Positions 10,641 to 62,800 of a stretch of DNA of 64,000 nt are shown here, piece by piece. The stretch's first letter is position 1; every line of letters begins with the position of its first letter. The notes under the pieces were generated by a model, which had not been told where the DNA came from, did not search any database, and was given only the letters and a program-made list of their open reading frames with translations. The position numbers and the translations under genes were made by a program. The stretch lies in contig NC_087082.1 of NCBI RefSeq assembly GCF_026151205.1, positions 9,742,901-9,806,900 of the forward strand, in the 5' to 3' direction. The DNA comes from Bolinopsis microptera (Eukaryota; Ctenophora; Tentaculata; Lobata; Bolinopsidae).

Positions 10641-10656
10641 AACGGTTAAATCACAA

Positions 10657-23493: not shown

Positions 23494-24800
23494 TTACCAA
23501 CTGGCCTTAAATAATAAGTTAAAATCATAAGTACCCGTTGCAACGAGAAGGTTAAACTGCATAGTCTCAATCTTGTCTTTTTCTGTCAATTCCCGCTGTA
23601 TATATTCCAGTAACTGGAAATTAATAGAATTATAAATACGAATTTTATAAATAAATCATCCAATAAACAACGTCACAATTAAATAGTTGCAATTTGACCG
23701 AAACCCAGAATCATGGGTAAAGTGGACCACTGCCAGTGTCTCTCTTGCCAGTACTGTGATGACCACAATGTCTGACCATTTCTCCACTTGACAGTCTACA
23801 TTAGAATCACTGTTTCATCTAATAGATCTAATATAACCACATAACTAAAATACCGAGAATGAAAATGATGATAAATAACCCAAACCTTAGAAATGCAGTC
23901 TAAAAGATATCTTGAAGTGACTTGGTCTGTTTCCACGCATGTCATGTTGTGTAGAATCTTGTTAAGAGACATACACACGAACTTCTGTAAAAGTGTGTAT
24001 TAGTTATTAAATAGTTACTAACTTACTTCTGACATTTCGATTATCCGATACTCAAAATTACTCAAAATTACTCAAAATTGCTCAAAATTACTCAAAATTA
24101 CTCAAAATTACTCAAAATTACTCAAAATTAACTGACATTGGGGATAAACGGATACCAAAATTGACGTAGTAACTACAAAAAAATGACAAAGTTACCGCAC
24201 CACAAGTGACCAAGTTACTACCACAAGTGACCCAGTTACTACCACAAGTGACCCAGTTACTACCACAAACCTTATCAGTAGTGTTGAGACAGTCCATAGC
24301 CGGAGCGATGAAGTCTACAAAGTTCTGAACACAGTACTCAGTGTGCTGACACGTGATGTCAACCAGGAAGCGCAGCGCGACCCTCACGCACGTGGTGGAG
24401 TCAGCCTTGTAGTTAGTCACGGCGATACTGTAGACAGGGGTGTGATTACAAATGGGGACCAGATTTGAGTTATTCTAATTTCAATAATTAGAGTTAATAA
24501 TTAGCAAGACCACGGTTGATGCTATGCTGGGAGGCTCACACTCCAAATACAAGTTCAACCTGATTCTGAGGAATACACTAAAACTCATTTAAAAATAGCT
24601 CAAAACCAAAATCAAACACTAACTTGAACTTATCCTGAAGTTCGAAGAAATCAGGTGATGTTTTGTTGATGGATCTAGCTAGATCTAAACAGGGGAAGAC
24701 AAGACTCTTGTCCCAAGATAACAGTTTAGCTACCAGCTCCATATCACCTGCATCCAGCTTCTGTCCCTCACTTGTCTGTAAAGGAATGTTTTAAATCACT

Positions 24801-24835
<35 letters not shown>

Positions 24836-30800: not shown

Positions 30801-33800
30801 CCGTTTGTATGGATACATATTATTATTGTTTACATAACATGTATTATTATTGTTTACTGCATGCTAGTCCTCATAAAAAGTAATAAATCGAACAAAAGGA
30901 AAAACAAACCAGCATCAGGAACATGTCTACTCCCACCAGTGTAGGGGTCGCTGAAGTTAGGGTCGTACTCCATTGCCTTGTTATCAATACCCGTGTTCTG
31001 CCTTATGTACTCTGCTATCTGGGTTAGGTACGCCTGAAATAATTTGAGCACCATAATATTACTCTGTTGTTTGGTATCTATAATATTTATCTATATGTTT
31101 ATTGGTCAATCTGAAGCACTTACACAGCATTGTCAGCATTTAAATATCTGCTTCCTCACCTTGAACTTGTTCACAGTAAGAACGTTGAGCTATTGAATTC
31201 CCGACACTAACCTGAGAAAGACAGTTTTTGTTGATGAATTCCTGAGCCACATTCCAAGGATCGTCCTCTTTATTACAGCCCAGCTTGAGAGGAGGCTTAC
31301 CCTCCTCTACATCTACATTTATCACAAAGTCGTACTTTACTCCGTCCAGTTCGTGCTTATCCTTGTCATACGCGTCCTGTACTACACCTGGGGAGTGGGG
31401 AGGAGAGTGGTTACTAAGCAGTGGTTACTAAGCAGTGGTTACTAAGCAGTGGTTACTAAGCAGTGGTTACTAAGCAGTTGTTACTAAGCAGTGGTTACTA
31501 ATTACTAAGCAGTGGTTACTAATACTAAGCAGTGGTTACTAAGCAGTGGTTACTAAGCAGTGGTTACTAAGCAGTGGTTACTAAGCAGTGGTTACTAACT
31601 ACTAAGCAGTGGTTACTAAGCAGTGGTTACTAAGCTAAGCAGTGATTACTAAGCAGTGGTTAATAACTACTAAGCAGTGGTTACTAAGCAGTGGTTACTA
31701 AGCAGTGATTACTAAGCAGTACAGTGGTTACTAAGCAGTGGTTAGTTAGTTACAAAGTGGGAGTTAGCAGCCGGGTTACTCAGGTTTCAAAACATATCAC
31801 GAATTAGGGAGCTCTGACCGGAGTCAGAACTCTAAACAAACAGCATTGTAACTCAGATTACTAGAGTTACTAAATATTAAACAGATTACTAAGTAACGAA
31901 CCTAAGCTCTGCCAGCTGCCCCCTGAGTACTGGTACACCTCCACAGTACCCGACCTGTTTATCATCAGGGTCTGTCCCTCTCTTCCTGGTTTGTTCAGAG
32001 CCTCAGGTCCTTGTAGTTTATCCAACTGAGGAGAAATAATGTGTTTTTAATGGGTATCGAGCAGTGATAGGACAAAGGAGGAGGAAACTGTCTTATTTTC
32101 CATTCTCTTCTGGTTCCTTAGTTCCCAAAACTCCTCACGAGTTGAAACACAATGAGACAGATACAAGTTCTATAATGAATTAACCATTTCTACTCCCAGA
32201 TAGTCTATCTACCTGTAAATCTCCCACACTCTGTGCACTGTGTTTCTGTGCAGCTAGCTGTTCCTTCATCTGCTCCCTATCTATCAGTGGTGCTAATCTC
32301 CCCTCGTGGGGACTGAAGATGCGAGCTACTCCGTCGCTACCTTCAGGGAATAGTTAGTTAGAGTAGGTACTGAAATGGTTATTAACTTAAAGTACTAAGA
32401 TCCGGATATAAGGTAGCGTCTTATTCAACATGTTGTCATGGAAACTACCAAACTGATGAGCTCACCTCCGACGAGAATATCAGAATCAGGGAGAGGTTCG
32501 CAACACCACGCACTGATAGCTGGTATCTGGATGCTCTGTTGGAGTGAACCATCCTTTACTATAAACAGGTTACCTCCTTCTCCTGACACTGCGAATCCTG
32601 GGGAGGCGGTACAGAGGTTATTAGTTATTGGTTACTGATTTGGATGCTATGGTTACATAATACATAGCTATCTAACTAGGTTAATAACATGTATGCCATA
32701 CATTGTATGGTTACTACGTTGGTCACTAAGTTGGTAACCAGGCACGTGTTTCCAAAATCAAACACATACCTTCAGGAAGGAGACAGAGAGAGTAGAGGAA
32801 GTTGCTGCTCAGCTGGACCGTGTTAAGACAAGAACCCGAAATGTCCCAGTGTCTGACGGTCCCGTCGTTACTGCAGGACATGAAGGTCTTGTCAGGGAGA
32901 ACTGATAGCTTCCTTACTGCGTCCAGATGTCCTTTGTACACTGTCTCCTGTTTACCTGCGATAGGTGGTTATAGTCCCCAGTTATACGGCATGTCAGACG
33001 GTACGTTAGACGGCATTTCACAGCTTGGATAAGCTTGTGAGAAATATTGTTATCATAGTTTGAACCTACTCAATCTTGTCACTAATTTAAGATCTAGGTT
33101 CAAGACGACCATTTGCATTTGACATTTGTCCAAAAAAATCATAGAATTATGAAGATGTGAAAGGTGCATCTATGTGGGCAGTTGGTAGATTCTCACCATC
33201 TCTCCAGAGTCTAATGGTCTTGTCTCCACTAGCAGAGAGGTAGATCCCCGCACCAGGGTAGATGGCCACGTCCCACACCGGAGCAGAGTGTCCCTTCAGC
33301 ACCTCCTTCAGTTCCATCTCCTCCCATACCTGAAGGAGCATATTATGAAGGAGCATATTATGAAGGAGCATATTATGTAGGAGCATATAATGTAGGAGCA
33401 TATATTATGAAGGAGCATATTATGTAGGAGCATATAATGTAGAAGCATATTATGTAGGAGCATATAATGTAGGAGCATATTATGTAGGAGCAGCATTAAA
33501 TTTGTGAACTTCAAAACCTTACCTTTATCTATCAAACTTAAAAGAGTCTAGAGAGTGTTAAGAACTAAATAAGAGACAAAAAGGTTTTAAAAAACCGTTT
33601 ATTTAATCGCTTCACGAGCAACCTTACCCCTCCGAGTCATTAAAAGTACGTACCCTAACGGTGCTATCAGCTGACCCAGACAGAATAGTACCGTGCCATC
33701 CCGTGGAGAGACACGTGACTCCCTCCGTGTGTCCGATAAGCTGCTTGATCGGCTCTGCTACTCCTGCAAGAATTTAAATTATTTATGCAGTTAAGTTCTA

Positions 33801-35636
33801 CATGATTGACCGTCAAAATATCTTTTTAGAAATTCTAACACTTTTCGAATGGTGTGGTAAACTGTTAAGGGAGTTTAAACCAGGCTTTATGAATGCTCAA
33901 TACAATAATTTTAATATTGTCTAAAGATTTTTAACCGAAAGAATGCTGATATTTTTCATGGAAAAACTCTTTCTGGTGACGACACTATTAACAGATCGTG
34001 TTTGCAGCAGAAGAGAAAATACAGAGAAGAAAGGAGCAAAGATATTTGATATAAGGGCGAGTGGGGGAACTTATTGGTCTACAGAAAAGGTTGCTGCACT
34101 CGGTGGGAGAAGGCATAAAACTGACAACGCCCAACAACGTATCCCATAAGAGCTATATTCTACTCCAAAAGGTCTCCAACAAACCTGTCCCCAAATAAGT
34201 TTCCAACCAACCTGTACAATAGATGTTGATAACTTTGTCCTGTCCGCCAGTCACAATAAGGCCCTTCGGAAAGTCATCAGTGGTCTTGAGGGACGCAACT
34301 GCGTTCACAAACCCTGTGTGTCCAGTTAGCTGACATATCACGCTCCACCTAGTAACAAAGATAGTAACACCTAGTAACACCTAGCAACACCTAGTAACAC
34401 CTAGTAACACGGGTAGTAACACCTAGTAACACCTAGCAACACCTAGTAACACCTAGCAACACAGGTAGTAACACCTAGTAACACAGGTAGTAACACCTAG
34501 TAACACCTAGCAACACCTAGTAACACCTAGTCACATAAGTAGTAACACTTAGTAATACCTAGTAACACCTAGTAACACCTAGCAACACATGTAGTAACAC
34601 CTAGTAATACCTAGTAACACCTAGTAACACCTAGCAACACATGTAGTAACACCTAGTAACACCTAGTAACACCTAGTAACAAGTTTCAAGGTAGACAGTT
34701 GAAAAGTAAATGTAAACCTGTCAGCAGCGGGTGTGTCCTTGTCACAGTCAGAGTTCTGTTCCCAGAGCCGGGCAGTGTTGTCCCTGGACCCTGTCACTAT
34801 CAGACCCTGGTTGTGAGGGGTTGTTATTGTATACATAGTGTATAGTGTATAGTGTATAATGTATAGAGGTGGTGAGGACACTATTAACAGATCGTGTTGT
34901 CCCTGGACCCTGTCACTATCAGACCCTGGTTGTGAGGGGTTGTTATTGTATACATAGTGTATAGTGTATAATGTAGTGTATAATGTATAATGTATAGAGA
35001 TGGTGAGTCGTTAAGGAATATATACTAAAGAATTGGAAACTTGCCAACCAGGCTTTCTCTATAACTAATCCCTATAAGCGGACAACTTGCTGTCAAAATA
35101 TAGCAAACAAACTAATTCAACCGTCTAATTTGCCCCATTATGTTGAATGTTGATATGAAACTTACAGTGGCGGTCATGCTATTAACTTACAGTGGCTGTC
35201 ATGCTATTAACTTACAGTGGCTGTCATGCTATTAACTTACAGTGGCGGTCATGCTATTAACTTACAGTGGCGGTCATGCTATTAACTTACAGTGGCGGTC
35301 ATGCTATTAACTTACAGTGGCGGTCATGCTATTAACTTACAGTGGCGGTCATGCTATTAACTTACAGTGGCGGTCATGCTATTAACTTACAGTGGCTGTC
35401 ATGCTATTAACTTACAGTGGCGGTCATGCTATTAACTTACAGTGGCGGTCATGCTATTAACTTACAGTGGCGGTCATGCTATTAACTTACAGTGGCTGTA
35501 ATGTATATTGTATAATTTGTATAGTATAAAGAGCATAGTGTATGGTATACAGAGTGTATAAACTTACAGTGGCGGTCATGCAGCAGCACCGGACATCAGA
35601 GGAGTGACCGACAAGGGTAGCAGACAGATCGTACAT
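23494..35636 (-). CDS. PLAA: PLAA / Ufd3 (Doa1) ubiquitin-binding, Cdc48/p97 cofactor
   Basis: Coding exons on the minus strand: 35636-35568, 34806-34718, 34348-34212, 33763-33654, 33329-33197, 32955-32770, 32597-32466, 32340-32213, 32025-31902, 31387-31212, 31033-30910, a probable linker exon 27087-26974, 25177-24996, 24775-24624, 24427-24271, 23984-23886, 23613-23494. All junctions are GT-AG and in frame; the product is about 743 residues (705 without the linker exon). The order is a seven-bladed WD40 propeller (for example GLIVTGSRDNTARLW, GHTGFVNAVASL, GDKTIRLWRDG), then a PFU domain (YDFVINVDVEEGKPPLKLG, SDDPW-like EDDPWNVAQEF), then a PUL domain (GDELTHFEKIAKK, WDKSLVFPCLDL) ending LLVATGT. 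PLAA binds ubiquitin through PFU and p97 through PUL, and acts in ubiquitin recycling and endosomal sorting. Its 5.7-kb interior (30909-25178) hosts a BCCT gene. Confidence 0.93.
24051..24130. repeat. Tandem repeat, 10-bp unit (CTCAAAATTA) x 8
   Basis: Perfect copies apart from one substitution, in the PLAA intron between 24270 and 23985. Confidence 0.97.
24185..24270. repeat. 21-bp repeat abutting a PLAA donor site
   Basis: About four copies of a unit containing CCACAAGTGACCCAGTTACT. The array runs directly into the 5' splice site of the exon ending at 24271 (GTTTGTGG on the minus strand). Confidence 0.85.
24802..24833. repeat. Poly-G tract of 32 bases
   Basis: Uninterrupted G run on the plus strand, 26 bp from the 3' splice site at 24776. 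On the transcribed strand it gives a C run in the intron's acceptor region. The length may not be exact, because such runs are hard to sequence. Confidence 0.95.
25590..26632. repeat. Composite minisatellite, ~100-130-bp unit with nested 10-bp repeats
   Basis: About nine copies of a unit containing TCTAGATCTAATATAGCC, GTGTAATGTAACATG and TTTATCTTGC(A/T)GTGACG. Each is followed by a variable number (2-6) of the 10-mer CACCTAGTAA. The same 10-mer forms a separate array at 34347-34680 in another intron of the same gene. Confidence 0.93.
26733..26948. repeat. Tandem repeat, 11-bp unit (ATTACATTTTAC-like)
   Basis: About 19 copies of an ACATT(A/G/C)CATTTT unit, 25 bp past the donor of the PLAA linker exon. 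ORFs across it are repeat artefacts. Confidence 0.95.
27088..27795. other. PLAA intron / upstream region of the nested BCCT gene
   Basis: Contains duplicated AGTTTGCTGGTTTGAGGTTGG segments (27465-27487, 27523-27545) and the presumed BCCT promoter. An acceptor-like TTTTAACACCAG lies about 24 bp upstream of the BCCT start codon. No other gene. Confidence 0.5.
27796..30294 (+). CDS. BCCT-family (betaine/carnitine/choline) transporter, intronless
   Basis: A single-exon 832-residue protein. The family signature is GVGVGIFLYGASEPVYHY at about residues 140-157. The conserved segment around TM8 is WGLWLSWTPFVGMFIA then KISKGRTVREVI (residues ~390-415). A Ser/Thr-rich ITSTSSGALMVD lies near residue 595. 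About 12 hydrophobic segments are visible, and the length exceeds bacterial BetP/CaiT because of extracellular loops. BCCT proteins carry quaternary-ammonium osmolytes, often with Na+; substrate here is not predictable. It lies antisense inside a PLAA intron. BCCT genes are chiefly bacterial but occur in several non-vertebrate animals. The absence of introns fits either retroposition or an ancestrally intronless or transferred gene. Confidence 0.93.
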   Translation: MVMEEERTEDVIETHPEQPTLTSWKGALIKDDSLWAKWRFGKGGEGPELRFNPAVVLVSLLMIAGVGLWCIVRTEDAHKTLKDGELALSGGLSWFYIFCRMFWIGFILVLYVSKHGAVKLGKDRDKPQYSEGTWFSMIFCSGVGVGIFLYGASEPVYHYTTPNKHTAHGYTPDNELAEPALTLAFFHWGLQSWIAYVVLGVGLAFVTHRKGLPMTIRSCFYPLIGGRVYTWLGDLIDILSVVSTMLSLISVIGIGALQINSGLNFVFPNSNIGNSTVSQTIIVWTLTAFTAASVLCGGGVRRVCELCLAAAVLLTLTVLLSDDTPFLLTTFFQTTGNYFHYLLKLGFNGDAMEEMNITSAQGADRGRDYKDGAGDGPSGWLQMWTLHYWGLWLSWTPFVGMFIAKISKGRTVREVIRGALVAPITFSFLWVATFGGAAIRNEKIAATLVTDETPFCCPAQPELLNWGPAALAGANWRTELVRDVQKKYGGYDNVEGCTEKFITLWDQHWKDNTAGGLEFTNFGTFYNTSKNRYKISLIRSHDELYPLNGNKTAARLSCIPAGDLWYSLMYTYNNLGNMLSIASLVAIFLFIITSTSSGALMVDIIAANGDKHPPRVQRIFWCCVMGGVASAALATKGEAALAAIQTASILTALPFYLFLSVLCVSLWRGLEMECGDVNPYGVDFTVGVIDPVSSWRPTLWCSLLKNLVLTPVTLYFVSVKIGASKKEAGTTCLLAYLFWVCWLFLVILETQVPGWGAVGWVCYLAHGYIVSAVRGAVRDRYQIHGSSAEDLLVAVLLYPCVAVQLQASVVRRGLSTVLPLPYRVTKSKSDKL
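30295..30909. other. 3' flank of BCCT within the PLAA intron
   Basis: AT-rich, no further ORF. A possible polyadenylation hexamer AATAAA occurs near 30768 on the plus strand. Confidence 0.4.
31412..31745. repeat. Tandem repeat, 14-bp unit (GTGGTTACTAAGCA)n
   Basis: About 23 copies with occasional 7-8 base truncations, starting 25 bp from the acceptor of the PLAA exon that begins at 31387. Confidence 0.95.
33331..33492. repeat. 16-bp repeat contiguous with a PLAA acceptor site
   Basis: About ten copies of a GGAGCATATTATGTA-like unit. On the sense strand each copy ends ATATGCTCCT, which is the polypyrimidine tract of the real acceptor (GCTCCTTCAG, exon start 33329). The array therefore begins at the splice site. 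Confidence 0.93.
34347..34680. repeat. 10-bp repeat (CACCTAGTAA)n spanning a PLAA acceptor site
   Basis: About 33 copies with variants (CACCTAGCAA, CAGGTAGTAA). The sense-strand unit GTTACTAGGT is the sequence of the real 3' splice site of exon 3 (TTACTAG, exon start 34348), so every unit presents an AG in the same context. Confidence 0.93.
34776..35007. repeat. Tandem duplication of a PLAA exon 2 acceptor and 5' exon part
   Basis: About 110 bp covering ~31 bp of exon 2, its acceptor and upstream intron (34776-34876) is repeated at about 34892-35007. The extra copy loses the reading frame after ~11 codons (stop), so it cannot replace exon 2. Confidence 0.85.
35162..35500. repeat. 25-bp repeat carrying copies of the PLAA exon 1 donor site
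   Basis: About 13-14 copies. The sense-strand unit contains CATGACCGCCACTGTAAGTT, that is the last 15 bases of exon 1 plus its GTAAGT donor. The true donor is at 35567-35566, 70 bp away. Confidence 0.95.
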
Positions 35637-36308: not shown

Positions 36309-39300
36309 TCAGTCCATATCAGTTGACTTCTTACTTCTTAGTTTCTTAAGATTCTCCAGATCATCCTGGAGTCGTTGTTGTAGGAATGAGTTGGTGGTAC
36401 GAGCTACCTCCACCTCTAACCCTCTTATCTTCCTGTCCAAGGTCTGAAATATGTGAAATATGTGAAATATGTGGAATTTTGTTATTTAAACAGAATGCGG
36501 ATGCTATTTTTACAAATCGTAGTTATTTTTGTAACATTCAGTCGGAAATGATTGCACAGTATCTTAAATCTTAATTTTATAGTTCAAGTTAAAGCAGTAT
36601 AAAGTCTGCTAAATACACTCTAATTAACATGTCCGCTACATGCTATAGTTATGAACACTAGCAAAATAATAACCTCCAGCTCAAATATAGCATCCTGACT
36701 GGTAGAATTGCTGGTATCCATGGCTACCCTCACAGCTCCTTTCCTAATGGCCTTTGTAGTCGTACCGTCCTGTAGGTGGAACATTATTATTATTATGATT
36801 AGAGAGTATCATGGTTATGAAGGGATTAACCGTGATTTGCTTTTACTAACTGTACAATAGGTAAAGAGGTATCAGTCGAATAATCTGTAGAATAAAGTCC
36901 GAGAATAATCGCAAATTCTCAATAATTTGGTAGTGAAAGCTAGAAAACCTCGTCTGGACTAATAATTTGGGAGTGAAAGCTAGCAAACCTCGTCTGGACT
37001 AATAATTATGGAGTGAAAGCTAGCAAACCTCGTCTGGACTAATAATTAGGGAGTGAAAGCTAGCAAACCTCGTCCGGACTAATAATTAGGGAGTGAAAGC
37101 TAGAAAACCTCGTCTGGACTAATAATTAGGGAGTGAAAGCTAGCAAACCTCGTCCGGACTAATAATTAGGGAGTGAAAGCTAGCAAACCTCGTCCGGACT
37201 AATAATTAGGGAGTGAAAGCTAGCAAACCTCGTCTGGACTAATAATTAGGGAGTGAAAGCTAGCAAACCTCGTCTGGACTAATAATTAGGGAGTGAAAGC
37301 TAGCAAACCTCGTCTGGACTAATAATTAGGGAGTGAAAGCTAGCAAACCTCGTCTGGACTAATAATTTGGGAGAGAAAGCTAGCAAACCTCGTCTGGACT
37401 AATAATTTGGGAGTGAAAGCTAGCAAACCTCGTCTGGACTAATAATTAGGGAGTGAAAGCTAGCAAACCTCGTCTGGACTAATAATTAGGGAGTGAAAGC
37501 TAGCAAACCTCGTCTGGACTAATAATTAGGGAGTGAAAGCTAGCAAACCTCGTCTGGACTAATAATTAGGGAGTGAAAGCTAGCAAACCTCGTCCGGACT
37601 AATAATTAGGGAGTGAAAGCTAGCAAACCTCGTCCGGACTAATAATTAGGGAGTGAAAGCTAGCAAACCTCGTCCGGACTAATAATTAGGGAGTGAAAGC
37701 TAGCAAACCTCGTCTGGACTAATAATTATGGAGTGAAAGCTAGCAAACCTCGTCTGGACTAATAATTAGGGAGCGAAAGCTAGCAAACCTCGTCCGGACT
37801 AATAATTAGGGAGTGAAAGCTAGCAAACCTCGTCTGGACTAATGATTAGGGAGTGAAAGCTAGCAAACCTCGTCTGGACTGGAGTCCCCGTCATCACTAC
37901 TCAGATCCTGGAACATCTCCATTAGCTCTTTGTCGAAACTCTTCTCCTCTTCTCCCTCCTGAATCAGAATGTTTTGTATACAGAGTGTATACTGTATAGG
38001 GTATAGTGTATGGTGTATAGTGTATAGTGTATAATGTATAATATAACTCTTCTCCTATTTTCCCTCCAGAACAGGGGTGTAGGAAGCGGGGGGGGGGGGG
38101 GGGGGGCAGAATGTTTTGGGGTTTGGGGATAGCAGCCATATTTTGTCAAGCTGAGCAATTTACCGCGATGGAACGGCTGTGAGAAGCAATGTTTGGATTT
38201 CAAGAAAAAAAAAGTCGTGAAGTTAAACCACTGATTTTTACTGAATGATTTCAGATGAAAACGTTAAACCGAGCATGATTTTTATTTGTTGTAATCCTAC
38301 CTGAGCGCTGTGTTTTGTGGCTGAAATGTCAGCAGTCAGCGTTTCATCCAACATTTTAGAGAGGTCACATGTAGCAGTCTGGGGTATCTCTATTATTTCT
38401 TGAGAGAGGCCTGCGTGGGAATAGTGTTACAGAGGGTTTGTGAATTACCCTGAAAGAGCACGTATTATCGGCTCTGCTGTTTACTGTGTCTGTAGCACAA
38501 AATATCAGAGTTAGTTTGGAGGTTCAGCTTGTGTCTCTTTTACTTGATGTACGTGCAGCAACGCAGTGGTGGTGCGCCGTGCAGAGAGTATGTGTCTATT
38601 AAAATAATAGCTGCATTGTTAAAATAGGACAGGTTGGATCACTTTGTAGCCTGAACGAAATGTTAATACAGGCTTATTTAAGTACACATTCAACACTTTT
38701 TAGTTTTATTGAACAACATGCTTACTATTTGTATGCATAAAATAAAAATAAAATATATAAATTATAAGTTATCCCAAGTTTTATTAATATTACAATATTT
38801 ATCACGTGGTTGTTATCAGTTTTGTTTTGTTTTGTTTTGTTTTAGTTATGCAGGTTCGGTTTTCTACAGGGCACAATGTAGCAAATTGATAGACGCCGTG
38901 GTTTCTGTAATGGAACATAAAATAAGAAAGTACAATCTGTACTTCATCAATTCCGATAGTAAATATGTTTCAAGAATGACCACGACACCGCAATTGTATC
39001 TATTGACTAACTTGTTATCTTGACGTTATCATCAGGGCTTTACTTGTTACTCAAATACAACGACACCTTTACACTCCATAATCTCAATGCTATCATACAA
39101 TTATCCCGTTAAACACAGCTGAGGAGACATCCTTTAAACATCCCGCTACAACACGCTACAACCCGCGACACCACCACAACCCGCGACACAACCCACAACA
39201 TGCTATCAGCTGTATTACATAGCACTCAAACCAAAGTCGGTCACGTGCAAGCCAGGAGTAACCGATGAAGTTATTACAATTGCACTTGATATAATCAGAG

Positions 39301-48300: not shown

Positions 48301-50721
48301 GGCACAAAAGTTGAAGTTGTCAAAAAAGTGAACTTAAATGTCAAAATTTCCAACGTCAAATTCGTATTAAAAAGGGGCGAAATATGAGCATAATTCTGCT
48401 GGCAGAGATAAGCAGTATGGATTTCAAAGTTAGGATTTCAAAGTTAGGATGAACGATGCGGTTGTTCATGGGAAAATCTTAAAATTTAGAAAAACAGAAT
48501 CACATCATAGCTTCTTTAACATGCTGTTGAGTAGCACTGTTTCTGGATTGGAACCTAAAACGCACGGTCACCAGCGAAATGACCTCATATGAACCGATTG
48601 GGCGACTCAAATCACGAGCGAACAAATTACAAACAGTAACGAAATCTTATGAAATGAGAATGTAACTTGATACCCATAACTATCAGGCGTGAAGTCATTA
48701 TGAAGTCGATTGAGTGATTAACAGGTGACACGTTATATACCTTACTGATTTCGGGAAATTCACTATTTAGTAACCAATTTATTAATATAAAGCTGTATAG
48801 TTGCAACATTAAAGATACCAAAATGGTTTGTCTGTGTAGTAATTTGTTTATTTGTACTTTTAGTAATCCTCAACAACTTCAGCCACTGCCTTCCAGTACA
48901 AATGGTGTGCGGATGCGAACACAAATATTTAATATTACAAACCATAATTTTCTGATTGAACTGCATTCTTTTTATCTATAATTAATATATAACTATAAGA
49001 TAAATTAGCAACGTAACAGTTGAAAAGTTATAATAAAATAAACACACTCATACTCGAATAAAGCTTTAAAATCGTACAATAAAAATGTATGGTTAGGAAC
49101 TGGTTGTAATAATAAGGAATATTGAAACTGTCCCTTTGATCACGAATCAATATGAACAAAAAGGTAGATTGATAACAGCGTGAATATGAGGTATATAAGA
49201 TGAGCTATAGGAATGAATAGATATGTTTCGCTCTATAAGGCAGCTGACCAAGGACGAGTATATCGAGCACAAAATAAAAGAATGAAACATTTTCCTGTAA
49301 GCTTGTAGTAAAAATATACTAGCTTGTTGAGGATTACATGCGATGAGCTATTCTTACTTTATATCACAAGATCCAGTCATGTCCTAACATTCCCTACTCA
49401 AAGTCAATATCCCATTCACTGTAATTGATAAGCTAAGAAGGTACACGAAACGTGTGTGAACAATATTGCGTTATCCAGCTATTGTCGTGCGAAGTACATA
49501 CAGCTTTACACGTCACGAGGTACACTGTTCCTACTCAAGTATTGTATCCTACAAATCTTCTCTCCAGATACTATTTATTCAGGCAATACTATCGAGAATA
49601 TACCTATTTTAATGATTATTTTAACGTCATTTTGATCGGTTTTGTTGATATTACGCTGTGTTTAGTACGAGCAACATTTTATTTGGCTGTATCTTCGGTT
49701 GTGTAGGATATTTTTTGACGCGATTTAATCTTACTAACAAAGAATACCATTAGGTTCCTCCCTGTGACCACGGGTTTTCTAGTCTATATTATAAATCAGA
49801 GAATTCTTTCTGTACGTACACTGTACGACCGCCCACGTGCAAATCAAACGAAAAATATGAACTTGCGTAGTAACCATGGTTGCGAGGGTTATTACACGCA
49901 CGTGCACGTGCAATGATTGTTTTAACGTCATTTTGATCGGTTTTGTTGATATTACGCTGTGTTTAGTACGAGCAACATTTTAATTGGCTGTATCTTCAGT
50001 CGTGTAGTATATTTTTTGACGCAATTTAAACTTACCTACAAAAAATACTATTGGCTTCCTCCCAGTGACTACGGGTTTTCTAGTAATAACTATAAGATAA
50101 ATTAGCAGAAAACGTAAAATATTAAAAGTTCTACGTAATTAAATAACCGTAATTAAATAAACACATTACCTTGAGCAGCGCGTTCCTGCAGTCATCCTTG
50201 ATGTCCACCTGTAATCTCTCACGTAGGTTACCCTTACTTACTGCCTGTCTCACTGTCTGTAAAACACGGACTGTCGTTATGTGAAACTGTATAGTGTGTA
50301 TCAGTAGTAGTATTATATAGTATTATATATAGTAGTAGTATTATATATAGTAGTAGTATATCTAATACAAGATTCTGTGGTGTTGTATGTGATAATATTG
50401 CAAGTATTAAGGATTATTTAGCTAAATATTATTATATATTATACAGTAAATTGCCAATTTACTGGGGCTTTCTAACCCAGTAATTCGTAGTTTGATCTAC
50501 ATTAAATAAAGTATACAATTATTATGGGGATATAAAAAACACCCAGCAAATCGGGGTTTTGTTGTATGATCCTACTGTTAGTCTACAAGTTCACTTAATC
50601 ACTAAATACCTTAATTATATTACAAAGTCAGCTGACAGTTTACCTGAGCGTATTTGTCGGGAAGTCTGAGGATCATCAGGTTTTCTTGGTTTTCATCGTC
50701 CTCATCCTTCTTTCTCGACAT
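36309..50721 (-). CDS. TAF7: TAF7, TFIID subunit
   Basis: Ten coding exons on the minus strand: 50721-50644, 50256-50170, 44126-44076, 43961-43845, 43637-43452, 43193-43070, 38410-38301, 37958-37869, 36769-36674, 36443-36309. All junctions are GT-AG and in frame; 357 residues against about 349 in human. The N-terminal TAFII55 domain reads LMILRLPDKYAQ, VRQAVSKGNLRERL, ARIVDLPCIVECQKT, then KTFYKSGDICQMLL, YVHSHGITPPFKNVRKKRF and DDPEVEKEV. An acidic stretch (EMFQDLSSDDGDSSPDE) and a C-terminal coiled coil follow. In TFIID, TAF7 binds TAF1 and restrains its activity until pre-initiation complex assembly. Introns 2 (50169-44127) and 6 (43069-38411) host three intronless genes. Confidence 0.95.
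36444..36476. repeat. 9-bp repeat spanning the TAF7 last-exon acceptor
   Basis: Four copies of an ACATATTTC unit on the sense strand. The last one is the acceptor itself (ATATTTCAG, exon start 36443). Confidence 0.8.
36925..37880. repeat. 40-bp repeat carrying copies of the TAF7 exon 8 donor junction
   Basis: About 24 near-identical copies. On the sense strand each unit starts AGTCCAGACGAG (the last 12 bases of exon 8, encoding SPDE) followed by GTTTGC, the exon's donor, then 22 bases of intron. The real junction is at 37869/37868, at the edge of the array. Confidence 0.96.
37938..38118. repeat. Partial duplication at the TAF7 exon 8 acceptor, with a G19 tract
   Basis: AACTCTTCTCCT followed by a CCCTCC-type tract occurs at 37938 (exon 8 start and acceptor) and again at about 38044. 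A (GTATAGT)n stretch lies between. GCAGAATGTTTTG recurs after a run of 19 G (38088-38106). Confidence 0.8.
39668..41212 (+). CDS. Unidentified alpha-helical repeat (TPR-like) protein, intronless, nested in TAF7
   Basis: A 514-residue ORF without introns, with an in-frame stop just upstream of the chosen Met. Throughout, it alternates amphipathic helices with the alanine/tyrosine spacing of TPR/SEL1-type solenoids (for example LSFIYTVKGNYKEAASVI, YAQYQIGKEYVKAGFPGKG, YYWIGEGMVKLA). A proline-rich break (SPPPPTAVALY) near residue 300 separates two helical halves. No catalytic motif, signal peptide or membrane segment is seen. A scaffolding role is inferred from fold only, and I do not recognise the family. 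It lies antisense in TAF7 intron 6. Codon content and GC are higher than the flanks, supporting real coding. Confidence 0.7.
   Translation: MVKSDIFRVTAVRDKLIFSLPLFKGREKLSLLSLLSFIYTVKGNYKEAASVISRCKLLSSATLLVLTTESELFNRTSDTKNAKKTLKLLQRSLLDTYYESFQIEAIIDLALAHIVFGLNCAALEMLHKARLRLSSKRSGRTVCFLSFCYGLVYYYFNQNAERGLSKYYAQLCIDKLTPLLKISHYRNVCGVYLWKLQVRMASVTIPVPNNMVVSGYAQYQIGKEYVKAGFPGKGVHLLKRSLQVSKLADTYYWIGEGMVKLANRQKGCDPMWTDILERCPVYVKPPTNEQDSGLSPPPPTAVALYRRDRERRLALTSPTAVLKIIQRIDTDSRKCSNEVLYIEAQEYYKRAIISSPILEEKYNLSLAKLMIYLNKVMSAEALLSRVISRISSPFILFEASLLLATCFASGKIMIASEHISRCLDLLPKISVSSEKLHLLTQWCVYYAYYHCNRRNSLDSKYWVDHLQDLGYSQVEPLVEKLKGMQEDKVVRMVGSRWVSKNRNAKSHSIDVDQS
41671..42606 (-). CDS. Secreted beta-trefoil plus aerolysin/ETX-MTX2-like pore-forming protein, nested in TAF7
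   Basis: Intronless, 311 residues from the preferred Met at 42606. An upstream in-frame Met (42639) would add 11 charged residues before an otherwise canonical signal peptide, so the inner one is favoured. Residues ~24-160 form a ricin-like beta-trefoil with three similar lobes (DQLWTLEP, DQLFRFVP, DQMWKLVP). The C-terminal half is rich in alternating Ser/Thr (EITVTTGIKRSSSHTITNKS, a likely transmembrane-hairpin region) and resembles aerolysin-superfamily pore-forming domains. In animals such proteins serve as venom, digestive or immune effectors; which applies here is unknown. It lies sense-oriented in TAF7 intron 6. No disruption is seen. Confidence 0.75.
   Translation of the reverse strand, partial: EMKSQLSLIFLVTLTINLAVCQSLVLDNNQFLIYNKVYHKARLTQWGSGGSNVGTYEHALYPDQLWTLEPHPSQKGCYYIINEVYSQYRIANWVHRFVVYSGPHFSDQLFRFVPSGNNDGFFYIYSCLYKNDRIAKYGVGNQQISMYSGPRYNDQMWKLVPRFKVNFYTDEVFHFDNRQGSSPITREITVTTGIKRSSSHTITNKSTYKMSVEASMKGGFKLFGMSATAKADYSSELETTFSENNELSWSKTEKIVFIIRPGKNFKVMQHKVNFDGQFSHDSCSLLTSIKIFESDTAHFEDKDNFIISYVQ
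44288..44432. repeat. 15-bp GC-rich tandem repeat
   Basis: About nine copies of GGCGGTGGACGCGAG and variants in TAF7 intron 2. It is open in several frames because the unit is a multiple of 3. The high GC contrasts with the AT-rich surroundings. Confidence 0.93.
44525..44915. repeat. Two diverged direct copies of a ~190-bp sequence
   Basis: Both contain, in order, GGTTGGAATT(T/A)GTTCTAA, AAAGTTAGATCC, GGAATTTCA(C/T)CGTG, GTGATATATGG and a TATCGCAAATAG(G/A)ATCAC stretch. The copies start at about 44540 and 44770. No coding content. Confidence 0.75.
45720..45790 (-). repeat. tRNA-derived SINE head or tRNA pseudogene
   Basis: On the minus strand a box A-like TAGTTTTAGCAGTACC (45780-45765) is followed at normal tRNA spacing by a box B-like GAGTTCAAATCCCGCC (45748-45733). 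The T-arm and acceptor stems do not pair well, so it is not a functional tRNA. It lies in TAF7 intron 2. Confidence 0.6.
46169..48136 (-). CDS. Unidentified multi-pass membrane protein, intronless, nested in TAF7
   Basis: 655 residues. One hydrophobic helix lies near the N-terminus (AALAFVIPGLYLVLTSALLY), followed by a soluble region with four exact TAGANQGF octapeptides and a Pro/Met-rich linker (residues ~130-240). The C-terminal half has five or six hydrophobic segments with charged, conserved-looking loops (DHADVMVDVYYFVRLD, VVEDGPELLLEYFYVDKY). The acidic/aromatic TM pattern vaguely recalls XK/Kell-related scramblases, but that is a weak resemblance and I do not assign a function. It has the same orientation as its host TAF7 and is contained wholly in intron 2. 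No introns or frame breaks. Confidence 0.75.
   Translation of the reverse strand: MSTNSVHSVNISGIVYENVTTLWQPHLNSLEAALAFVIPGLYLVLTSALLYKLGANRLGWRQIVKIYQDKKNCIYFEEYFGEELFALITEQVDPQIKLKINMYRHECRARENQIRLAANSRPAAIPSFSHTSPFTAGANQGFTAGANQGFTAGANQGFTAGANQGFAAPFPRGTSSRMTFQRPRFINPGMNMAGMTNMRQTVPFPTGNPNISRAQLLPSIRPLLLPSPHNTMTLPPEIYELFDKPVLFKYHVFRRTDGIYISASGVQLPIKFCDQLAGTKMAGIQSVWVSGKQLITAQKCSPFSCATPKLVRLVWSMLKLIALPIGKIAVDHADVMVDVYYFVRLDSGDLIPRAITRNVFVTYGILTFGILGAIKSTVFAYLVLKVVKNSYDETANVRSHLLKVMAACFKIVVEDGPELLLEYFYVDKYVTSNPPWWIIFKDAVTTLLYILPIVRLVKSGSGSYQLLTTSSTIYLDIFGTHLDLFKWSRVFVCCAFVHFFFSFTMIFRVMGMIYQYSSANIAQHCLNATDMGELVHTPFSYKCLNGFDYVILILMAIVVMLILIICSYVFFVKMGDLLKYFRSEHKNVVRYSVYGENSYVKEAERKENSESRETGTLIRFNCETRKYFKETVSKDKDCKISVCQWRVKNHFSEPT
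48137..49609. other. TAF7 intron 2, no further gene seen
   Basis: AT-rich. A short tandem CCATGTTACAA / CCATGTCATAA pattern lies at about 48183-48222, and a segment near 48985-49050 (AACTATAAGATAAATTAGCA) recurs at about 50085. Confidence 0.45.
49610..50095. repeat. Pair of ~185-bp direct repeats
   Basis: 49610-49795 and 49911-50085 share GTTTTGTTGATATTACGCTG, GTACGAGCAACATTTTA, TATTTTTTGACGC and CGGGTTTTCTAGT at about 85-90% identity. They look like two copies of a dispersed element in TAF7 intron 2. The intervening ~110 bp has CACGTGCA-type palindromic motifs. Confidence 0.8.
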
Positions 50722-51052: not shown

Positions 51053-54000
51053 TTATGATTCATGAGCTACTTCCAGTGCCATAGAAACAGTATTAATGAG
51101 CATAGAATTATCATCTGAACAAGCTGCAAACATCATCTCCTCCTCCTCCCCCTTACCCTGACCCGGTCTCCACTGCACTGTGTTAATGGTAAGGGTAGCA
51201 CACTGGTGTCTGGGCAGACTGCTCAGCAACTCTATCACGTCACCTCTCCTCTCCACTATACAAATATCCCCCGTTTCAAATCCTAATAGTATCAGACCAC
51301 GTGGTGATATATCCACCGCGGTTACTGAACTTTGGAACGTTCTCGAACACGCTTCCCTCCAGGATGCCTTACCCTCACTCTTATCTTCGTCCCATACTTT
51401 CAGTTTCTTATCTCTGGAGACGGTAGCGAAGGAGGAGGAGTCTCCGAACCAAGCACAACCCCAGATTATCCTGGAGTGAGCTTTAGAGGGGGAGGTGGCG
51501 AGGAGGGAGTGAGAGGGGATATCCCAAACTGCCCACTCACGGTCACGTGACACTGTCACCAGGTAACGGCTGTCTGGGGAGAACTTCATCCTGGACGGGT
51601 CATGTGGGTCAGTGTACCTACACTACCAAATTACCGGTACATTACCGAATTTATTTTGATATATCCACACTAGGAAACCCTACTTTGCAAGCTCAAAACT
51701 TCGGCTGATTATGTTGCGATTATTAGCAACAACAGAGATTTTAGAGCAATAAAAAATGTATCTTCAATCTGAGAAAGCGTCTGATAGATTACCTAGTAAC
51801 AGTAAGATTGTGATGTTGTAACTCTGCCAGCTTGGTCCAGGTGCCCGCTTCCCACAGGATCACAGCAGCGAACTGAAGCTGGGTAGCTCTGCAGGAGGAG
51901 GCCAGGACTCGTCCGTCCGGGGAGGCGGCGCATTGGTACACTTCGTAACCGTGTCCGTACAGCTTGTGTAACTCCGGCCACAGCGTGTTCTGGGGTTAGG
52001 GGGTTAGGGGACACTTGTAATAATGTTCATAGGTTTTAGTTTGTAAAGGAAATATTTGAGGTTAGGGGGTTGAGGAGACACTTGTAATACTGTTCATAAG
52101 TTTTAGTTTGAAAAGGAAATATTTGAGGTTAGGGGCTTGAGGAGACACTTGTAATACTGTTCATAAGTTTTAGTTTGAAAAGGAAATATTTGAGGTTAGG
52201 GGCTTGAGGGGACACTTGTAATACTGTTCATAAGTTTTAGTTTGAAAAGGAAATATTTGAGGTTAGGGGCTTGAGGAGACACTTGTAATACTGTTCATAA
52301 GTTTTAGTTTGAAAAGGAAATATTTGAGGTTAGGGGGTTAGGGGACACTTGTAATAATGTTCATAGGTTTTAGTTTGTAAAGGAAATATTTGAGGTTAGG
52401 GGGTTGAGGAGACACTTGTAATACTGTTCATAAGTTTTAGTTTGAAAAGGAAATATTTGAGGTTAGAGGCTTGAGGAGACACTTGTAATACTGTTCATAA
52501 GTTTTAGTTTGAAAAGGAAATATTTGAGGTTAGGGGCTTGAGGGGACACTTGTAATACTGTTCATAAGTTTTAGTTTTAAAAGGAAATATTTGAGGTTAG
52601 AGGCTTGAGGAGACACTTGTAATACTGTTCATAAGTTTTAGTTTGAAAAGGAAATATTTGAGGTTAGGGGCTTGAGGAGACACTTGTAATACTGTTCATA
52701 AGTTTTAGTTTGAAAAGGAAATATTTGAGGTTAGGGGTTTGAGGAGACACTTGTAATACTGTTCATAAGTTTTAGTTTGAAAAGGAAATATTCGAGGTTA
52801 GGATTATCATTGAGACAACTGAAACTCATCCTGTCCTCCTTTAGCTTGAACAAGGAATTCTTGATGGGTTGAGGAGAGAAACTGGTGTCTAGGTTGAGTT
52901 GAAAATGACACTATCTGGTTAGCTTGAGACACATTTACCGACATAGTTTCGTAAAGAATCATTTGAGTTAGCTGAGGACCACTTGTGACTGTTCATACAG
53001 CGTAGTATGAAAGAAATTTGGTTAAGGGCTTGAGGAACATGTTACTTTCATCAGGTTAGTTTAACGAAATTTATTTCGCCATAGTTTAGTATACTTTAAT
53101 ACTTTCATAAGTTATTCGAAGGAGGAGAGTTCCGAATGAAGGCTAGATACCTGTAATACTTTAAGGTTTAGGTTGGAAGGAAATTGAGAGGGGTCCCTAA
53201 GGCCACACTGGTATACACTGTTCCATAACGTGTTTGGAAAAGGAAACTTTCGGGAGGGTATGGGTCAGTAGACCAATTGATGGTACATTACATATATGTT
53301 TAAGTTCTCAGTTTGAAACCGTAAATTTAAGTAGCCTTGAGATGATCATGTTAGCTATTATTGCAAAAGATTTTAGGAAAAAAAATCGTATCTTCAGATT
53401 GAGAAGCGTCTGATAATTCTGTAAAGTTTGTATGATAGAAACTTGCAGTTGTGGTGCCGCGACCACTGTAAACGAGCAACAAGTGTAGCTTGAAGGAGGA
53501 ATTTGGCGTCTCGGGGAGCGGGCATTGTAAACTCGTAACGGTTATTAGTGAAACGGCACAGGTGTTTGGGTTAGGGGTTAGGGGACCTTTAAATGTTCAA
53601 GGTTTTAAGTTGTAAGAAATATTAGAGGTTTAGTTTGAGAACGGAATATTTAGTTAGGTGTTGGTAAACTTAGTTTCTGTTCAAATCTTAACTTTACGAA
53701 GGATCAAATTAGATTAGGGGTCTTGAACACTTAATATGTCATGGGTTTTAGGAGGAACTAAATTTTAGGTTTGGGTTGTAAGGAACATTGATTGGTCTGA
53801 GTGCCCTAAATAATTTTCAATCTGATAACAGTGAAATCAATTTTAACCTAATTCAAGAAAATTGAATCTTGTGCAAAGCGACATAATAACGAACAGACCT
53901 GCAACAAGACCTCCTCCAGAGGAGGTTCCACCAGAGTAGCAGGAGCGAAGGCTACCTGGTAGGGTATGTCGTAATCCTTGACATTAGCTGTACCAGTGTG

Positions 54001-58788: not shown

Positions 58789-59379
58789 TTATCCTTCAGG
58801 AACCATTTTAGTCTGTTCAAATATTGATGCAGTCTGATCAGATTCAGTCTGATCAGATTCAGTCTGATCATTGAGTCTGAAATAAGGAGGCTGAGTCTTC
58901 CTCAAATCTTGTATCCTAGACCAAGGCCACAGTAACCACGTAACCTTCCCCACAATCATCTTCTCGTGTAACTGCCCGTACTCATTACTGTCCCTGCCTG
59001 CAGTGTCCCTGTTATCCGCCTCCACCCACACATACCCGGGTTTTATCAGCACTGGACTTCCACCACTCTTCATTAACTTACTCGGTACGATAGTCTGTCC
59101 AGAAGTAGCTGCAACACGCTTCATTGCTAGTCTGTTACCGTGTTTAGGTGACCTGAACACCACAATGTCACCCACCAGCGGTGTGAAGGAGAACTTGCTC
59201 AGCCAGACACGCTCCCGGAGTAGGGTACGTGTTGGACCAGGGTTCAGGGTGGGGGACATGGACCGGCCCCGGACAGTGTGGACGTAGCCCACGTTATCGT
59301 AGAATAAAACGGAGAGAACTCCTCCTCCCACAAACCATTTGGACATTTGCCATATCTTGTTAACTCTTGTTTGCCACAT
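58789..59379 (-). CDS. IMMP2L: Mitochondrial inner membrane protease subunit 2 (signal peptidase I family)
   Basis: A single-exon ORF of 196 residues. The N-terminal hydrophobic anchor is WFVGGGVLSVLFYDNVGYV. The catalytic serine is in GRSMSPTLNP (Ser40) and the general-base lysine in RLAMKRVAA (Lys87), followed by the conserved PGYVWVEADN and DSNEYGQL boxes and GKVTWLLWPW. This matches the Imp2 type of the S26 family, which in the intermembrane space removes sorting signals from imported proteins. The C-terminus carries a short species-specific tail with a repeated SDQTE unit (three copies), probably a local DNA repeat. It is 520 bp downstream of RIOK3 and 476 bp upstream of ELP2, same strand. 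Confidence 0.93.
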   Translation of the reverse strand: MWQTRVNKIWQMSKWFVGGGVLSVLFYDNVGYVHTVRGRSMSPTLNPGPTRTLLRERVWLSKFSFTPLVGDIVVFRSPKHGNRLAMKRVAATSGQTIVPSKLMKSGGSPVLIKPGYVWVEADNRDTAGRDSNEYGQLHEKMIVGKVTWLLWPWSRIQDLRKTQPPYFRLNDQTESDQTESDQTASIFEQTKMVPEG

Positions 59380-59898
59380 GTTGGCTGGTGTTACATTCCT
59401 TTCTTATCTGTTAGTAGTGTTGTGACATTCCAAGGGGAGAGCTGTTTGTAAAAGCACTGTTAAAGATTATCATCATTATCGTTTTAACAGCCAGTGAATT
59501 TCTAAAAATATTTTCACTTGGCGAATTGTAGTCAATGATAACGAAGAGTTTGGATTTCTATGGAAAGCAGTTAAAGAAATTAATTCACTAACTTTCACAA
59601 TAAAAACATTTTTACAATAAATGAGTACATACCTAAAAATGTTTTGAAAGGTCAAAATGTCAACCAAGAGGATCAGAATTAAATAAATCAGACTAAAGTA
59701 AATAAATCAGATTCTCCTAAGTCCTACTATTAGCATTTTTTAGGAACTGTTAATAAACTAAATAGTCTCCCAATAGCTAATGTTACAATTACAACTCACA
59801 GCACTTGTGAACTAAGTATTTCTAAACTAACACATTTCCCCAACTCCAATAAAACCATTCACAAAGTCCTACTCAACAGAAAGTTCCCCCAGTAATCC

Positions 59899-62800
59899 TT
59901 ACTCCTGTCCTGTACTGCTACAAGGTTCTGCATTACCTTGTAAACTCTCCTCCCCCCTGTCTCCTTCCTGCTGACTTTCTTCTCCCCTAGCCTCCTCTTC
60001 TTCTTCCTCCTCTTCTTCGCTATCACTATCAGATAAAAGGATTGTCTCTTGAAAAGATGTCTCAAAAGCGTAGTCAGTAGCTGTTGAACCATGCTTGAAG
60101 TCTTTTATTTCTTTTCGTTGTAAGTGCTCTATCTGTGGAAATTTGCAAAGCTGTTATACAATTGTTTTCATAGTTTTAAGGAAACGATCTGATTGACATT
60201 ATAGCTTCAGCTAGTGATATCCTACACAACTCATAGCTAGTCAAGTTCTGAATGAACAGAGATGAAACTAAGATTAGAGCAGTAACAAGAGACAACATAA
60301 ATAAGACTTACCCTAGCCACAAAAGTAGCTTCATCTGTGTACTCTACTTCCAATCCTGTCACGTGACAAAACATTTTCCTAGGATCTGCGACATTCTTCA
60401 ACCCCCGAGAGTGGAAATATTTGTACATATTCGTACAATCTCTGAAAATTGAAATATTTGTGTAGTACACAGGATTTCTGATTTTATGTTTGTATAACAT
60501 TCATACAATTTCTGGCAGTTAAATATCAGGTTAATGTGATGTTTGTAATTTGGAAGTGTTACACTGAAAATAATTATATCAAAGTATGTTCGTGCAGTGT
60601 GTCCATCAATATTATAAGTGCAAGTAATACTATCATAATACTGATTAAAATTAGCATATAATTATCATATATTAGCATATTATATGTTGCTAGATTCTCA
60701 CAAAACTTAAAATGCTTAAAATTAATATCATTTCAGACACAGCTAAATAGGTAGTCACGCTCGTCAGGGGATCTAAACCCTTTTCTCTACACTTCAGGCC
60801 ACTACACTACTGAGTTAGTTTATTACAAATACAATGTAATAATTAGTATTTGTGCGCAGTGTACTGTTATTATATGGGACTTGTTTTTGAAACCAAACAA
60901 ATAAAAAGCTCGAAAATACGAAAAGATCTGTCATCACGTGAACCACTCATCGTAACTGTTAAAAACCAACTCTGGAAATAGAGAAATAAGGCAACCTCAC
61001 CCCCAATATAACTACCTAGACATATTAACTACCTGTATAGATAAGTAAGAGCTGAGGGATGGTCAGTAAGGACTGCTTGTGATAGGTCTATAAAGTGCAA
61101 AACTCCGTTAGACCAAAGTAAGTTATATTCGCTAAGATCAGCGTGTACTAGCTTACTTTTACTGTGCATTGCCTGAAACATTAATTAATTAATTAAGTAT
61201 CATTAATATTATCAACTCACTAAGAAGTGTTATTTGTAGTGTCTTGTCAGATAAGACTTGCTCATTAAAAAACATAGCTTTTAGAAAAATAAAATAAATC
61301 AAAAATAAAAAATGAAGTCAAATGTGATAAATCATAACGAATTAAGTTTTGTTCAGGACGTTATAGAAGGAATTGATTTAATGTAGTCCGAGGATTCCTA
61401 ACTCTCCTTGCGTCCAAATATGGTCTTTCTCTTCTCTCATAAATGAATTTTAATACATAGTTGGACAGCAAATTATCAAAAGGAAATAAATAATGAAGGA
61501 AAGTTTTGTCACTTACAATGAGTTTCATTACACGGTGAAATTTTTAAAATTATAAAAATAGCGTTGATTTGGTTAGATTAGAGTGACAAGAATTTAATTT
61601 ACTACTCAGTATATTGCTGACCATCATGCCGGATAGCAGTTGCTGATAGGCGGATTTTAACTGGTCGGATGAGAAGGCAGCATCGTGGAGGGTCGGGGCC
61701 GGAACACCGTTAGATCCTGATTAAAAACCTATTTATACTTTTTATTTGGCAAGTTTAAAACTGTCCTAACAAAAAAAATCTACCCCAAGGGTTATGAGTT
61801 GCACCGAAATCAGGCACCATCACCCTTACCAATAAAGCTGAGAAGTAGCAACTGTTTTCTGTGAGCCACCACTTCAGGCACCCTTACCAATAAAGCTGAG
61901 AAGTAGCAACTGTTTTCTGTGAGCCACCACTTCAGGCACCCTTACCAATAAAGCTGAGAAGTAGCAACTGTTTTCTGTGAGCCACCACTTCAGGCACCCT
62001 TACCAATAAAGCTGAGAAGTAGCAACTGTTTTCTGTGAGCCACCACTTCAGGCACCCTTACCAATAAAGCTGAGAAGTAGCAACTGTTTTCTGTGAGCCA
62101 CCACTTCAGGCACCCTTACCAATAAAGCTGAGAAGTAGCAACTGTTTTCTGTGAGCCACCACTTCAGGCACCCTTACCAATAAAGCTGAGAAGTAGCAAC
62201 TGTTTTCTGTGAGCCACCACTTCTGGACACAATATCCCCGCTCTCCTCAACCTGTTCAGATTGTTAACTTCCTTCATAGCCCATACCTCTATTAGTTTCT
62301 TTGTTCTGTTGTTAACCACTTTAGTGTACCTTAATAATATGTACTGTTTAAATTATCTTAGAAATATTGCTTTTGACAGAGCAAATTGACGCAAGCTTTG
62401 TGATTCTGTTTTTTAGAGAAAGATAAGATATCAGCGTTTACACTATCTGTTATTTAGAACTTTATAATAAGTGTACCTGTCATCCAAGTACTCTCTCCTC
62501 CTCCGGAACTCGTTTAAACTGGTCTTGTGGATCTTGAATACACACTCAGCTGGTACGGGTATTGACTCGTTACCCAGCCCTGGCAGCCTGAAACAGACTG
62601 GATTAGTTGTGGATCAATACAAATAATTGGATGTGATAAGCTGAACATGTTGAAGGCTATGCATACTGAAACTGTGTGATGATCTCATTTTTGCTTCAGG
62701 AGAGTAAACGAAAGACTCGATAAAATTTATCAATGATCTAATTGATGATTTAAAAGGGAATTTTAAATCCTAAGAGTAAGAGCAAATAGTTGACCGTTGA

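Follow-up and report, generated by a model that had tools for sequence, protein, structure and literature searches.

Gene content of the window

The window, the whole 64,000-nucleotide stretch that was analyzed (G000:C11:9742901-9806900), comes from an assembly of 264.65 Mb in 232 contigs and holds the genes PLAA (18 exons), TAF7 (10), RIOK3 (9), and ELP2 (13), with a total of 46 introns. The models were rebuilt with a small gene finder combined with a manual reading of the open frames; when each gene was left out in turn, the finder recovered 34 of the 46 known introns and called 16 extra ones. The RIOK3 model begins at an internal methionine, as the gene extends beyond the window. The 50 kb adjoining the window held few usable genes and was excluded from the counts.

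Both PLAA and RIOK3 could be compared with independent proteins. P0121 (735 amino acids) is 94% identical to PLAA and is encoded on a contig of just 2,312 bp, so it is evidently spliced. It contains WD40, PFU, and PUL domains and agrees with the model at the protein level throughout, except for exon 12, which it skips, so that both junctions of this exon are unconfirmed. The alignment of a second protein, P0122 (53%), spans the same junctions. P0241, which has a RIO1 domain and is listed on a contig equal in length to C11, is identical to the RIOK3 model across all 455 residues and agrees at its eight junctions. Neither P0121 nor P0241 includes any array copy where its exons meet. The TAF7 and ELP2 models are complete open frames with Pfam matches (TAFII55_N and WD40, respectively), and their junctions are predicted.

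The genes present suggest that the host is an animal. Among the matches listed, the closest named relatives of a nested BCCT protein were ctenophores (Bolinopsis, 44%; Mnemiopsis, 40%). No ctenophore name appeared among the 120 matches listed for PLAA and for RIOK3, and Branchiostoma was absent among the 120 listed for each of BCCT, PLAA, and RIOK3, many of which are nameless.

Repeat arrays at splice sites

Arrays with a period of at least 7 make up 22% of the sequence in the window and 15.6% in the kinesin blocks described below. After merging, the TRF predictions with such a period amounted to 27 arrays in or across the 46 introns of the window. The features located at splice sites are collected in Table 1.

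Table 1. Exons, tandem arrays, and junction copies at splice sites of the window and of the kinesin sample. Positions are those of the window, or the block for kinesins.
Feature	Position	Strand	Basis and remarks
RIOK3 exon 5 of the model, donor at 62177	62178..62329	-	Junction agrees with P0241
RIOK3 intron 5 donor array, 58 bp x 6.9	61821..62223	-	TRF; 6 further donor-junction copies
TAF7 exon 8, donor at 37868	37869..37958	-	Gene model
TAF7 intron 8 donor array, 40 bp x 24	36921..37880	-	TRF; 23 further donor-junction copies
PLAA exon 1, donor at 35567	35568..35636	-	Agrees with P0121
PLAA intron 1 array, 25 bp x 13.8	35159..35503	-	TRF; unit repeats the exon 1 donor junction
PLAA intron 15 array, 21 bp x 3.3, start at +2 of donor 24270	24199..24268	-	TRF; junction agrees with P0121
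TAF7 intron 2 array, 14 bp x 1.9, start 9 nt from donor	50134..50160	-	TRF; weak case
Duplicate, within intron 1, of the PLAA exon 2 acceptor region	34894..34947	-	One acceptor-junction copy; limits set by eye
PLAA intron 2 array, TTACTAGGTG units, into exon 3 acceptor	34346..34681	-	TRF; junction agrees with P0121
PLAA intron 4 array, 15-bp units, end 1 nt from exon 5 acceptor	33331..33492	-	TRF; junction agrees with P0121
TAF7 intron 9 array, 9 bp x 3.7, end 1 nt from last acceptor	36445..36477	-	TRF
ELP2 intron 11 array, 67 bp x 12.1, end 4 nt from acceptor 51990	51994..52802	-	TRF
RIOK3 intron 2 array, 15 bp x 9.1, end 8 nt from acceptor	63014..63173	-	TRF
Kinesin junction-copy array	C12:14427500		33 bp x 52
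Kinesin junction-copy arrays	C2:22503000		35 bp x 25 at donor; 49 bp x 26-29 at acceptor
Kinesin junction-copy array	C2:16576500		53 bp x 8
Kinesin junction-copy array	C5:9863000		53 bp x 2
Kinesin junction copies	C13:6730000		38 bp x 2 at donor; 21-bp units at acceptor, junction word x 35
Kinesin acceptor junction, one extra copy	C12:14832500

A preliminary description of this DNA had reported intronic minisatellites seeded at splice junctions. When TRF arrays were set against the rebuilt junctions, all the arrays that it named were present, and its observation is largely correct and confirmed in nearly every detail. The units in the RIOK3, TAF7, and PLAA exon 1 arrays are copies of the donor junction. 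In RIOK3 intron 5, the array begins 46 nt within the exon (-46), and its unit consists of 49 nt of exon end followed by GTAAGGGTG. The TAF7 intron 8 array begins 12 nt within the exon (-12), with a unit that includes the exon end AGTCCAGACGAG followed by GTTTGC. These are the two arrays of the window that reach across a donor by over 3 nt. On the acceptor side, the PLAA intron 2 array extends 3 nt into exon 3. In seven arrays, an edge falls between -3 and +10 relative to a splice site, and five of these edges lie within 4 nt. The PLAA intron 1 array, which contains 14 copies of the donor junction, starts 64 nt downstream of the donor and thus not exactly at the splice site, as had been claimed. 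The arrays in RIOK3 intron 2 and TAF7 intron 2 are additional cases beyond those described earlier.

Junction copies in an independent sample of introns

A second set of introns was taken from kinesin loci, picked solely by their match to PF00225 and without regard to repeats. An intron was accepted if both flanking exons matched the profile or if it was anchored between adjacent matches. Among the 208 predicted introns, 78 with a single homology-supported exon and 75 that were purely ab initio were left out, with 32 of the 78 used in a first kinesin set only. Pairs with large profile gaps were skipped, one unsolved pair (C7:4100500 2249-2646) was dropped, locus L032 was excluded from the final counts as a near-copy of L013, and further loci that we inspected do not enter the count. 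The resulting sample comprises 61 introns in 20 blocks. Three of them were solved by hand and added after the first count, and as one was positive, the overall figure moved from 10/104 to 11/107.

A junction word was defined as 12 exon plus 6 intron nucleotides and was scored if it recurred in the intron. By this measure, the junction is copied in 8 of the 61 kinesin introns and in 3 of the 46 introns of the window (11/107 overall). In 10 of these 11 introns, the units recur in tandem or as one or more tandem pairs nearby, with the unit structure read for donors. Most of the junction-copy arrays (8/10) have a unit length not divisible by three (58, 40, 25, 53, 53, 38, 35, and 49 bp), the exceptions being those of 33/36 and 21 bp. 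At C13:6730000, the last acceptor copy yields DSLGGNSMTLM, which we take to be the expected kinesin pattern.

Position of arrays relative to splice sites

An array was considered near a splice site when it lay within 10 nt of it or across it. With arrays placed uniformly inside introns, 9 of the 27 arrays of the window are near a splice site, versus 2.19 expected (P=5e-5), and 5 of 24 in the first kinesin set, versus 1.73 (P=0.016). Uniform placement is not a fair test and was rejected as the main null: the founding unit, of period p, may itself lie across an exon edge, and an array lengthens its own intron. In the null that replaced it, the founder position is uniform over the pre-expansion intron and straddling of exon edges is allowed. 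Under this null, which treats arrays within one gene as independent when they are not, 9 of 27 arrays are near a splice site in the window versus 4.80 expected (P=0.017), 11 of 35 in the kinesins versus 5.11 (P=0.0025), and 20 of 62 overall versus 9.91 (P=2e-4), an excess of about two-fold. The preliminary description had considered nine such cases hard to explain by chance; the excess is real, but smaller than this implied, with nearly five of the 27 arrays expected.

Both components of the excess were also evaluated under this null. Straddlers alone are at expectation in the window (2 versus 2.60) and exceed it in the kinesins (7 versus 3.13; P=0.02), with 9 versus 5.73 overall (P=0.09). Array edges alone, at -3 to +10, are in excess in the window (7 versus 2.20; P=0.002) and number 4 versus 1.97 in the kinesins (P=0.12) and 11 versus 4.18 overall (P=0.0014). 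When only arrays of at least 60 bp are considered, straddlers amount to 9 versus 4.96 expected overall (P=0.036) and to 7 versus 2.58 in the kinesins (P=0.005). The excess in arrays of this length favors some seeding at junctions and is the main result against the reading that we favor below.

We give very little credence to chance combined with artifacts (permissive TRF edges, short introns, misassembly, or incorrect gene models) as the source of the pattern. It draws on the rise of the window expectation from 2.2 to 4.8 of 27 arrays once straddling is allowed, on the small samples, and on the fact that the window was flagged on account of its arrays. The kinesins, however, were picked by Pfam and still deviate from the null, with their eight copied junctions; the PLAA and RIOK3 models match independent proteins; and chance matching does not account for arrays with 24 to 52 junction copies.

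Copying of junction words and of intron interiors

If splice junctions were mutational hot spots, where slippage, R-loop-linked breaks, or template switching start duplications, copying would be expected to peak at the junction. The excess near splice sites points in this direction, both for edges and for kinesin straddlers, above all those in arrays of at least 60 bp, as does the GTAAG that copied donors have in common (see below). Against it stand the straddlers of the window, which do not exceed expectation, and the origin of several arrays from one gene (C12:14832500), which are therefore not independent.

The profile of word copying weighs further against it. Donor junction words recur in 8 of the 107 introns (window, 3/46; kinesins, 5/61) and acceptor junction words in 4 (window, 1/46; kinesins, 3/61). 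Interior words, taken 31 to 49 nt inside the intron, recur in 8/102 on the donor side (window, 3/45; kinesins, 5/57) and in 10/102 on the acceptor side (window, 6/45; kinesins, 4/57), while exon words 22 to 40 nt from the edge recur in 1/107 on either side. An earlier profile had the same shape. Over these 107 introns there is no peak of copying at junctions relative to the intron interior, and the frequency falls inside the exon. Such a level at the junction, similar to that of the interior and dropping inside the exon, is what tolerance of randomly placed duplications predicts.

We regard hot spots at junctions as an unlikely explanation, one that retains appreciable weight. Seeding at junctions, as originally proposed, is supported by the positions of arrays, with their two-fold excess, but not by the words that they copy.

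Sequence of copied donors

The copied donors differ from the others in two features, both noticed post hoc and resting on eight donors. GTAAG is present in 7 of the 8 copied donors versus 17 of the 99 others (P=9e-5). In the kinesins alone, the counts are 5/5 versus 11/56 (P=7e-4), and in the window alone 2/3 versus 6/43, which is not significant (P=0.07). Introns with other arrays lean in the opposite direction, with GTAAG in 2/32 versus 15/67 array-free introns (P=0.05). The second feature is the exon end: a terminal AG is found in 2 of the 8 copied donors versus 65 of 99 (P=0.05), and with a 15-nt exon word in 0/6 versus 67/101 (P=0.002). GTAAG and AG endings are anticorrelated among the other donors as well (P=0.001); among exon ends without AG, GTAAG is still enriched in copied donors (6/6 versus 12/34; P=0.005). 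The overall donor score does not differ between copied and other donors (P=0.65). TAF7 is the exception, with GTTTGC after GAG.

An in-frame stop lies beyond the used donor in RIOK3, TAF7, and PLAA exon 1. In PLAA and RIOK3, the genes in which the choice among copies was examined, the first donor is the one used, according to P0121 and P0241. The pattern of the copied donors fits survival through a splicing filter, in which early commitment at GTAAG and the absence of a stray AG may render the copies harmless.

Origin of the junction arrays

One proposed origin is the birth of introns from AGGT-containing duplications (Rogers model), with the arrays as its remnants. The exon 3 acceptor of PLAA (TAG|GTG) does lie within an array that repeats this motif in its unit and spans most of the 369-nt intron 2, and some acceptor units carry CAG|G. 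For donor arrays, this idea, also raised in the preliminary description, is disfavored and we have rejected it, since six of the eight copied donors do not end in AG; besides, the introns with donor arrays continue beyond the array to an acceptor of their own. As a general account, we consider it very improbable.

Hardly more probable is the insertion beside splice sites of mobile or dispersed repeats carrying minisatellites. An example of such an element may be the stretch of about 0.93 kb that lies in an intron of L013 and is absent from its near-copy L032 (flanks identical at 99.8% of 1,831 bp and at 94.7% of 1,329 bp). It shows a 9-bp target duplication, and its ends carry inverted terminal repeats with minisatellites next to them. 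A 21-bp unit, TTACCATAGTTACACTACTAG, is also common to the window, L019, and L034, and a donor lies 5 nt from the start of one of its arrays. A local origin does not apply to every intronic array, and some are dispersed or element-borne. The junction-copy units, however, contain local exon sequence and match only their own locus among the window and loci L011 to L045.

The explanation that we favor, with fair but far from complete confidence, is that the junction arrays are minisatellites of the type called mirages in amphioxus, derived from random straddling duplications that are tolerated by, and filtered through, the choice of splice site. The introns of this repeat-rich genome would acquire short tandem duplications along their whole length; a part of these would straddle an exon edge, persist, and then expand as minisatellites. 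They would probably survive because the splice site beside the full exon stays in use, that is, the first copy at a donor and the last at an acceptor, with the surplus copies being spliced out. Survival would depend on a splicing filter, with donor arrays persisting at GTAAG donors where the copied exon end offers no AG for use as a cryptic 3' splice site. For most cases, seeding at junctions is unnecessary, though the two-fold positional excess remains; pure tolerance predicts neither this excess nor that of straddlers in kinesin arrays of at least 60 bp.

A more specific proposal, which we put forward tentatively and with clearly lower confidence, is that about one in ten introns of this lineage has a copied junction, often in the form of a long array, and that the surviving copies point to a rule of splicing: harmless repetition of a donor, even dozens of times, would require a GTAAG that commits on transcription and a copied exon end with no AG. 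If this rule is true, the genome would offer a natural experiment, on a genome-wide scale, on how one of several identical tandem splice sites is selected. In a junction array, a single pre-mRNA contains the same splice site many times over within one local context, and the outermost copy is used at least in PLAA and RIOK3. Should this apply genome-wide, the arrays would be natural substrates to study what guides the spliceosome between equal sites (order of transcription, exon definition, or strength), and they would separate the tolerance of junction arrays from the creation of new introns.

Comparison with known systems

Ordinary intronic minisatellites (VNTRs) are the same kind of array, and most of them copy no splice junction. 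Introner-like elements are repeated sequences bounded by splice sites that form dispersed families (PMC4457414). The arrays described here resemble them in this repeated sequence bounded by splice sites and differ in that the junction-copy units match their own locus only; introner-like dispersal was rejected for these units within the window and L011 to L045.

In intron gain by tandem duplication of AGGT, a duplicated segment with splice signals yields a new intron (PMC3443670, PMC4974935). Tandem duplication of sequence containing splice signals is common to both systems. Here, an existing intron grows instead, and the AGGT of the duplicated segment is not found at six of the eight copied donors, which lack its AG, while some acceptor units carry AG|G.

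The closest system is that of the amphioxus mirages, which are described as minisatellite-like tandem repeats with a unit spanning the exon-intron boundary, affecting both 5' and 3' boundaries, reportedly without disturbing normal splicing, and with units of 10 to 72 bp in Adh3 (PMC3087553, PMC3902484). All of these traits have a counterpart here: a junction is copied in 11 of 107 introns, both boundaries are affected (8 donors and 4 acceptors of the 107 introns), the copies are kept out of the normal product (PLAA versus P0121 and RIOK3 versus P0241), and the unit lengths overlap (21 to 58 bp). Among the matches listed in our literature search, whose reach mostly left out subscription papers, there were no mirages outside cephalochordates and no genome-wide frequency. 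The present arrays differ in that their host is probably not a cephalochordate, that their frequency was measured over 107 introns against a null, and that the copied donors are mostly GTAAG without an exon-terminal AG. If they are genome-wide, they would extend the phenomenon from a handful of amphioxus genes to about one in ten of the sampled introns, probably in another animal group. The junction arrays match a known class, that of the amphioxus mirages.

Genes within introns and PLAA exon 12

PLAA intron 11 holds a gene for a BCCT-type transporter, whose protein has top matches, among those listed in the database search, at 95%, 81%, and 73% identity. Introns 2 and 6 of TAF7 also harbor additional genes, which together span positions 39691 to 48153 of the window. 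In PLAA itself, comparison of the gene model with P0121, an evidently spliced protein of 735 amino acids that is 94% identical to it, revealed no counterpart of exon 12 in the protein. As P0121 skips this exon, its sequence suggests either that exon 12 is a cassette exon or that species differ here.

Features of the window and of locus L013 (local coordinates)
Feature	Location	Strand	Remarks
ORF	7599-10661	-	1,021 codons, stop to stop
14-bp-unit array	14890-20070		5.2 kb, ~370 copies; beyond modelled genes
PLAA exon 12	26974-27087	-	
21-bp minisatellite	27487-27528		
BCCT-type transporter gene	27802-30294	+	no introns
Long ORF	39691-41206	+	TAF7 intron 6
Nested gene	41675-42657	-	TAF7 intron 6
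Nested gene	46169-48153	-	TAF7 intron 2
Inverted-repeat element	L013 1741-2671		9-bp target duplication; minisatellites adjoin its ends

Repeats and duplicated loci

The 21-bp minisatellite unit TTACCATAGTTACACTACTAG is found again at separate loci, in the window and in L019 and L034 of the same assembly. The inverted-repeat element of L013 is missing from L032, a near-copy of that locus. On the contig of the window, the kinesin loci L030 and L040 are inverted duplicates (identity, 99.3% and 97.7%), with ~3.5 kb of additional sequence lying between the inverted copies at L040. The 1,021-codon ORF may encode a Penelope-type retroelement protein.
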